Assembly (NCBI GenBank): GCA_944323685.1
Contig: CALUTJ010000026.1
Span: 1-34,117 of the forward strand
Direction: 5' to 3'
DNA from: Candidatus Gastranaerophilales bacterium
GTDB lineage: Bacteria; Cyanobacteriota; Vampirovibrionia; Gastranaerophilales; Gastranaerophilaceae
Length of the DNA: 34,117 nucleotides
In this document: piece by piece, positions 1-426 of the stretch
Layout of the letters: each line of letters starts with the position of its first letter
Position numbering within the stretch: the first letter of the stretch is position 1
Notes under the pieces: model-generated
Database searches by the model: none
The model's input: the letters and a program-made list of their open reading frames with translations, nothing else
Told to the model about the DNA's origin: nothing
Position numbers and translations under genes: made by a program

Positions 1-300
1 AGTGCTGCTACCTTCCTCCATCTCGACTTGACATTTAGTCAACTCTCGACGGAGTCCTTGCCACAAAGGCATTAGTCTAGCAATGTACCAAGGGAGTGCT
101 GCTACCTTCCTCCATCTCGACTTGACATTTAGTCAACTCTCGACGGAGTCCTTGCCACAAAGGCATTAGTCAGCAATGTACCAAGGGAGTGCTGCTACCT
201 TCCCCACTCGTCAATACTCAATTGACCCGCGGGACCCTGCCACAAAGGCCTCAAACTGAGCCCCTGCCACAAAGGCTTGTTTTGCCCGTCAAATTTATAT
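1..300. repeat. structured tandem repeat array, about 94-bp unit, about 2.5 to 3 copies
   Basis: Unit 1 (1-94) and unit 2 (95-187) are identical by eye except for one deleted base near the end of unit 2. A third, divergent unit starts at 188: it keeps the first 16 bases (AGTGCTGCTACCTTCC), then differs. Each full unit holds an imperfect hairpin. In unit 1 it is CTCC 16-19 with GGAG 51-54, TCGA 23-26 with TCGA 46-49, and TTGAC 28-32 with GTCAA 38-42. The third unit replaces it with a different perfect stem, GTCAAT/ATTGAC, so structure is kept while sequence changes. A small stem-loop, TGCCACAAAGGC, occurs four times (59, 153, 238, 265). The array is visibly more GC-rich than the rest of the window and has no credible ORF. 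It may continue left of base 1. Its function is unknown. Confidence 0.85.
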
Positions 301-317
301 TTAGTTTTCAAAAAAAT

Positions 318-389
318 TGCCGAAGATAGGAATCGAACCTACAACCTACGGTTTACAAAACCGTTGCTCTACCATTGAGCCACTTCGGC
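318..389 (-). tRNA. tRNA-Thr (anticodon UGU)
   Basis: The minus strand folds into a full cloverleaf of 72 nt. The acceptor stem is GCCGAAG/CTTCGGC with discriminator A at 318, the D arm is GCTC/GAGC, the anticodon arm is ACGGT/ACCGT with loop TTTGTAA, and the T arm carries TTCGATT. The anticodon TGT reads threonine ACA codons. CCA is not encoded. A strong promoter sits immediately upstream (398-426). Confidence 0.95.
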
Positions 390-397
390 ATAGGATT

Positions 398-426
398 ATA
401 ATATTAAGGACATGTTTAAGTGTCAA
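398..426 (-). promoter_or_regulatory. sigma-70-type promoter of tRNA-Thr
   Basis: On the minus strand a perfect -35 box TTGACA (421-426) is followed by a 17-nt spacer and a -10 box TATTAT (398-403). The predicted start falls about 7 nt further on, at the 5' end of the tRNA. The promoter lies just after the stop codon of the TPR gene (431). Confidence 0.75.

Follow-up and report, generated by a model that had tools for sequence, protein, structure and literature searches.

A truncated tandem array in a tRNA-Thr operon

The window analyzed here (34,117 nucleotides) is the whole of contig C26 in an assembly of 44 contigs and 2.3 Mb from a Candidatus Gastranaerophilales bacterium, referred to below as G000. 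Its sole tRNA gene, tRNA-Thr(UGU), lies near the contig start on the minus strand, so that the minus strand is also the biologically meaningful strand of the neighboring array; read this way, the array lies downstream of tRNA-Thr(UGU). Positions 1 to 210 form a 94-bp tandem repeat; a divergent third unit comes next (at about 179-249), then a fourth copy of TGCCACAAAGGC (Table 1).

Table 1. Features of the tRNA-Thr operon and its array at the start of the window, in minus-strand order
Feature	Position	Strand	Basis
Sigma70-like promoter TTGACA-17-TATTAT, just upstream of tRNA-Thr(UGU)	398..426	-	11/12 consensus positions; consensus match only
tRNA-Thr(UGU), first gene of the operon	317..390	-	ARAGORN/Rfam
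First tRNA-Thr(GGU) 5' echo GCCTTTGTGGCA	265..276	-	Comparison with intact tRNA-Thr(GGU) in L051-L062
Minimal hairpin CTCAGTTTGAG, between echoes 1 and 2	250..260	-	Sequence
Unit 3, 5' echo	238..249	-	TGCCACAAAGGC search
Unit 3, type-B hairpin (outer stem, internal loop, inner stem, TGAGT pentaloop) at the D-loop position	201..238	-	53.7 bits to model R1, by construction, since this hairpin is among the model's own sequences
Unit 3, tRNA-Thr(GGU) D-loop to anticodon piece	179..199	-	Sequence, comparison with relatives
Unit 2, 5' echo GCCTTTGTGGC	154..164	-	Repeat alignment
Unit 2, M1 palindrome AAGGACTCC..GGAGG	109..153	-	M1 comparison, folding
Unit 2, D-loop to anticodon piece	86..106	-	Sequence, comparison with relatives
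Unit 1, 5' echo GCCTTTGTGGC	60..70	-	Repeat alignment
Unit 1, M1 palindrome	15..59	-	M1 comparison, folding
Unit 1, D-loop piece, ended by the contig end	1..12	-	Contig start; remaining array and tRNA-Thr(GGU) absent from the assembly

A first-pass annotation had described a GC-rich array of about 94-bp units beside tRNA-Thr, two of them nearly identical and a third divergent, and the measurements agree: two units are 100% identical across 77 nt, at a spacing of 94 start to start, and GC content is about 50% in the array versus 25-41% across most of the first 2 kb. The same annotation had noted a stem-loop recurring four times and the replacement of a stem in the third unit. TGCCACAAAGGC is indeed found exactly four times (0.22 expected with one mismatch allowed), and the stem pairs differ, being AAGGACTCC..GAGTTGACTAAATGTCAAGTC..GGAGG in units 1 and 2 versus AGGGTCCCGCGGGTCAATTGAGTATTGACGAGTGGGG in unit 3. 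Folding of the minus strand gives z values of about -3.9 for units 1 and 2, -2.2 for the third unit and -4.1 for positions 1-316. Since position 1 of the window is the start of the contig, the array is truncated and 'two units plus one' is a lower bound.

The units are partial tRNA-Thr(GGU) genes

On the minus strand, every unit consists of the 5' half of tRNA-Thr(GGU), TGCCTTTGTGGC ... GGTAGCAGCACTCCCTTGGTA, from position 1 to the anticodon loop, with a palindrome of about 45 nt in place of the D-loop. This identity rests on the genes of relatives, with which the unit is collinear through the acceptor strand, D-arm and anticodon strand; in two of them (G013 and G020), an intact tRNA-Thr(GGU) (TGCCTTTGTGGCGCAGAGGTAGCGCACTCCCTTGGTAAGGGAGAGGCC...) directly follows a unit. 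The T-arm and the acceptor 3' strand are missing, and ARAGORN and Rfam report no full cloverleaf in the array units. No tRNA-Thr(GGU) was found in the G000 assembly; a contig break within the array is the simplest explanation. The tie to tRNA that the first-pass annotation suspected is therefore stronger than it was put there, because the unit itself is tRNA sequence. Its hint of SRP RNA does not survive: the likeness comes down to the short string GGAAGGTAGCAGC, which in the array is the D-arm and the 5' half of the anticodon arm of tRNA-Thr(GGU), and Rfam gives no SRP match (RF00169) at the gathering score or at E up to 10.

The first-pass annotation had also proposed a search for further units. 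Scanning genome contigs with GGTAGCAGCACTCCCTTGGTA returned 12 contigs: nine from Candidatus Gastranaerophilales, one from Cyanobacteria UBA1221 and two labeled 'uncultured bacterium'. Homologues in many congeners and named MAGs rule out a family limited to one assembly. Where contigs are long enough, the operon reads tRNA-Thr(UGU)-[1-3 or more units]-tRNA-Thr(GGU)-tRNA-Tyr. Among 46 further Thr(GGU) loci, units occur in some genera (g1, g9, g13, g31, g42, g49 and g51) whereas many others lack them and mostly have a short spacer. A strict unit pattern overlooked many variants.

The tRNA part of the unit tracks the variant of each species: TGCCTCTGTAGC in G059, GCCCTTGTGGC in G030, GCCCTTGTGGCTC in G004 and G009, and TGCCCATGTGGC in G070. 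Nearly all Thr units nevertheless have GTAGC-A-GCAC in common where the tRNA has GTAGCGCAC, which suggests shared descent and concerted change rather than repeated insertion at this locus. At six loci (L071, L072, L074, L075, L077 and L083), a bare 11-12-nt tRNA-Thr start (GCCCTTGTGGC) abuts tRNA-Thr(GGU) with no hairpin, possibly the remnant of a lost unit.

Echoes of tRNA ends across genomes

Self-echoes of tRNA genes, of which the Thr array is one case, form a pattern that is genome-wide and restricted to certain lineages. We scanned 700-bp flanks of the tRNA genes of eight genomes, with other tRNAs masked, for exact 12-nt matches to the same tRNA on either strand. In G000, 17 of the 32 tRNA genes have an exact self-echo of at least 12 nt nearby, with 1.8% in the mismatched control. 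Echo-bearing tRNAs amount to 12/33 (G006), 18/34 (G077), 5/30 (G155) and 14/31 (G030) in other array genomes, and to 0/43 (G027), 1/35 (G041) and 0/33 (the class outgroup G058) in genomes without arrays; these denominators are the tRNA genes taken in, not always the full set of a genome, contig ends remove some flanks, and the array genomes were partly picked for having Thr units, so that the fractions are no survey of the order. Across the scan, mismatched tRNA/flank controls gave 0.3-2.3%.

On the sense strand the echoes are strictly polar: 5' echoes are found upstream only and 3' echoes downstream only, the swapped combination occurring 0 times in all eight genomes. Echoes of the 5' end (at least 12 nt) start at position 1 in 31 of 45 cases and usually end at 12-20; those of the 3' end usually start 12-20 nt from it and run to the end in 39 of 46. 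Breakpoints fall mostly in the D- or T-arm, and a hairpin module with a T[AG]A[AG]T loop and a covarying stem is often found there. The nearest 5' echo begins 85-106 nt upstream in 20 of 25 tRNAs. In many units an inner tRNA arm is present in antisense as well, covering about positions 7-32 in upstream pieces, the nearest of which lie 36-45 nt ahead of the tRNA, and mostly -34 to -10 in downstream pieces. A direct repeat of the tRNA end flanks the insert, as at an integrative element; direct-repeat lengths vary, with no fixed target-site duplication, and the units are too short for a gene and hold no integrase gene.

Downstream of tRNA-Lys, -Met and -Arg in G000 (L160, L164, L172 and others), arrays repeat the T-stem/acceptor 3' end and a terminator-like trailer with an antisense T-arm piece in between, at periods of about 109-136 bp. 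Many tRNA genes, unrelated to one another, have a recurrent AT-rich leader (like TGAAAATTGAATA) that separates +1 of the tRNA from the last unit.

Comparison of congeners distinguishes filled from empty sites. The distance from conserved upstream sequence to the tRNA is 237 nt in G000 versus 7 nt in G006 at tRNA-Val, and 171 versus 6 nt and 166 versus 14 nt at two tRNA-Met genes, the extra DNA in G000 being the array. In G006 the conserved sequence includes, as judged by eye, promoter-like sequence. The arrays are therefore lineage-specific differences lying between promoter and tRNA, and may most simply be read as gains; from this position, 5' arrays are probably transcribed as a leader.

Assemblies seem to break at tRNA-end arrays. 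In G077, a tRNA gene lies no more than a few hundred bases from the end of 12 contigs (C2, C4, C10, C14, C18, C19, C20, C24, C27, C29, C33 and C40), and Rfam finds 32 tRNA matches in G000 versus 38-43 in seven other genomes.

Hairpin modules at tRNA genes and elsewhere

The first-pass annotation had proposed that structure is conserved while sequence changes, and the type-B hairpins confirm it. Over 14 hairpins, pairing of the inner stem holds in 100% of alignment cells, with 23 double-sided changes versus 7.8 in shuffles, and slid controls are at most 55% paired; this stem was picked after folding, and the alignment was trimmed to the region around it. In most, the loop reads T[AG]A[AG]T and is bordered by an internal loop rich in GA and a CTCC/GGAG-type outer stem. 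Model R1 was built from ten hairpins hand-shortened to equal length and therefore scores at those loci by construction; over 29 genomes it found mainly tRNA-associated units, at Thr, Leu(UAA), Pro(CGG) and Pro(UGG), and one locus with no tRNA. Pentaloop hairpins upstream of tRNAs lie on the tRNA strand in 23 of 25 cases; downstream, 16 of 26 lie on the opposite strand, several of the others being the upstream array of the next gene or AT-rich chance matches.

Close relatives of the type-B hairpin, M1 (AAGGACTCC...) and M2 (ACTCTGCCGA...), are dispersed. M1 ranges from no copies to more than 10 per genome within the genus, and many copies are not close to any tRNA. In one dispersed scaffold, the same hairpin loop is empty (L123, L130), filled with M1 (L037, L107, L120) or filled with M2 (L113). 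When inheritance at each tRNA was compared with spread within genomes, module core identities were 0.69, 0.65 and 0.69, values that favor neither.

A dispersed structured element, TGTTCGAGAAAAATTCGTGATAAG ... GACACTAGATT, consists of mosaic hairpins with differently filled loops (L037, L039, L107, L113, L120, L123 and L130). In G000 itself, a pair of nearly identical palindromic repeats, each a mosaic of a few hundred bp, contains M1- and M2-like hairpins (L003 and L004, at G000:C18:36007 and C2:26956).

Three other accounts of M1 were set aside. That M1 always sits in an inverted repeat is weakly supported by flank complementarity, which is slightly enriched overall (p 0.025, with flanks that are not independent). 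A phage-borne repeat is at odds with viral contigs, where the M1 core has no exact match. As for a REP/RAYT system, the number of Y1_Tnp copies does not go with that of M1 within the genus: as far as these incomplete assemblies go, the M1-rich G010, G015, G018 and G019 have no PF01797 match and the M1-poor G000 has three. The latter Y1_Tnp (IS200/IS605-type) matches lie at G000:C43:111-476, C11:41036-41311 and C11:46594-46869, two of them with an internal TAG.

Origin of the arrays

Broken self-copies at about half of the tRNA genes of G000 suggest a hairpin element that targets tRNA genes. The reading we favor, to which we give about an even chance, is that a loop-inserting palindromic element duplicates tRNA ends and that tandem expansion follows. 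The targets of the palindrome would be hairpin loops, those of the D- and T-arms of tRNA genes among them; either its insertion or a local duplication coupled to it would keep a whole tRNA on the inner side, with the displaced end of the gene on the outer side, and recombination would then multiply the tandem units. RNase P, cutting at +1, would probably remove a 5' array together with the leader. The fixed features of the hairpin (outer stem, GA-rich internal loop and T[AG]A[AG]T pentaloop) may reflect recognition by a putative enzyme or binding protein, with the inner stem free to covary. Support comes from the identity of units and tRNA, the echo scan and its polarity, the filled and empty sites, dispersed M1, the loop-filling scaffold, hairpin orientation and covariation. 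Against it stand the lack of tracking between Y1_Tnp and M1, the weak complementarity of M1 flanks, the variable direct-repeat lengths and the antisense inner-arm copies, which simple insertion does not explain; repeated insertion at the Thr locus is further opposed by the GTAGC-A-GCAC that nearly all its units have in common. We found no transposase or recombinase linked to the arrays.

The near-constant length of 5' units is unaccounted for by this mechanism. Under selection, the units could be structured leader or trailer RNAs of tRNA operons, tRNA-like and multi-hairpin, that control transcription, folding or processing of pre-tRNA by RNases. Such a role, which we consider rather unlikely, would fit the strong covariation around a fixed loop, a unit length of 85-106 nt maintained over many tRNAs and several genera, the promoter-array-tRNA order, and the many units that fold with the acceptor strand of the echo re-paired to a new complement (for example, GGGC..GCCC). 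However, occurrence within the genus is patchy, tRNA-Val and both tRNA-Met sites being filled in one species and empty in another, many genera have no arrays, and copy number ranges from 0 to 3 or more. Moreover, several 3' units are placed after terminator-like hairpins, and modules also occur away from tRNAs.

Partial tRNA copies are known from integration (PMC9897764), and the polarity and breakpoints are consistent with att-site scars of integrase-driven islands or phages that targeted the D- or T-loop, rebuilt the tRNA end and left tiny decayed elements. We regard this origin as improbable: the nearest units, hairpin stretches of about 70-250 bp, are too small to house an integrase gene, tandems reach three near-identical copies, several tRNAs are affected at both ends, and no viral contig holds the core palindrome by exact match. 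Replication errors alone, in which a polymerase stalling at tRNA hairpins switches template and duplicates or inverts arms, leaving hairpins as non-mobile by-products, could yield the D- and T-arm breakpoints and the antisense tRNA-arm copies near junctions, but are very improbable given the strong lineage restriction and the recurrence, at unrelated tRNAs and other loci, of a small set of module families that share conserved ends (AAGGACTCC, ACTCTGCCGA) and the pentaloop.

Returning to the loop-inserting element, a more specific version is possible, though we hold it tentatively: a dedicated, undescribed mobile system of Gastranaerophilales, which would rely on the symmetry of the acceptor stem to let its hairpin elements recognize a tRNA gene from the 5' or the 3' side. 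The elements would enter in a fixed orientation, at a D- or T-arm site 12-20 nt in from the end, and duplication of that end would restore the tRNA, yielding genome-wide echo arrays. If insertion is the correct reading, a very small palindromic element, by copying or displacing the tRNA end, has struck about half of the tRNA genes of some of these bacteria close to their termini, with the gene kept. This would provide a natural assay for the targeting of nucleic-acid hairpin loops and a covarying hairpin set with a near-invariant pentaloop, usable for seeking a binding partner, and would account for assemblies that break and tRNAs that go missing. If the arrays are instead selected leaders, they would represent a new class of tRNA-operon leader RNA.

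Relation to known systems

We found no direct precedent in the open-access literature for small hairpin units that repeat the terminal sequences of numerous tRNA genes; several known systems share parts of the pattern. At the E. coli tyrT locus, 178-bp repeats hold about 19 bp of the tRNA-Tyr 3' end; these are likewise tandem repeats downstream of a tRNA gene with a piece of its 3' end, but at a single locus, whereas the echoes described here are genome-wide, involve 5' and 3' ends and come with hairpin modules. Palindromic repeats associated with transposases are also known, as in REP/BIME with RAYT. Like these, and like Rickettsia palindromic elements and MITEs, our modules are dispersed, multi-copy and sometimes mosaic hairpins. 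They differ in their location at the D- and T-arms of tRNAs, where they accompany duplication of the gene's end, in their conserved T[AG]A[AG]T loop on a freely changing stem, and in showing no correlation with a Y1 transposase. Finally, integrative elements leave partial tRNA genes as att sites, and there too a partial copy stands beside the complete gene and the tRNA end is directly repeated; however, those cases flank elements of about 9-23 kb (PMC9897764), whereas here, with no recombinase gene seen, hairpin units of 70-250 bp lie, often in tandem, 5' or 3' of many tRNA genes.
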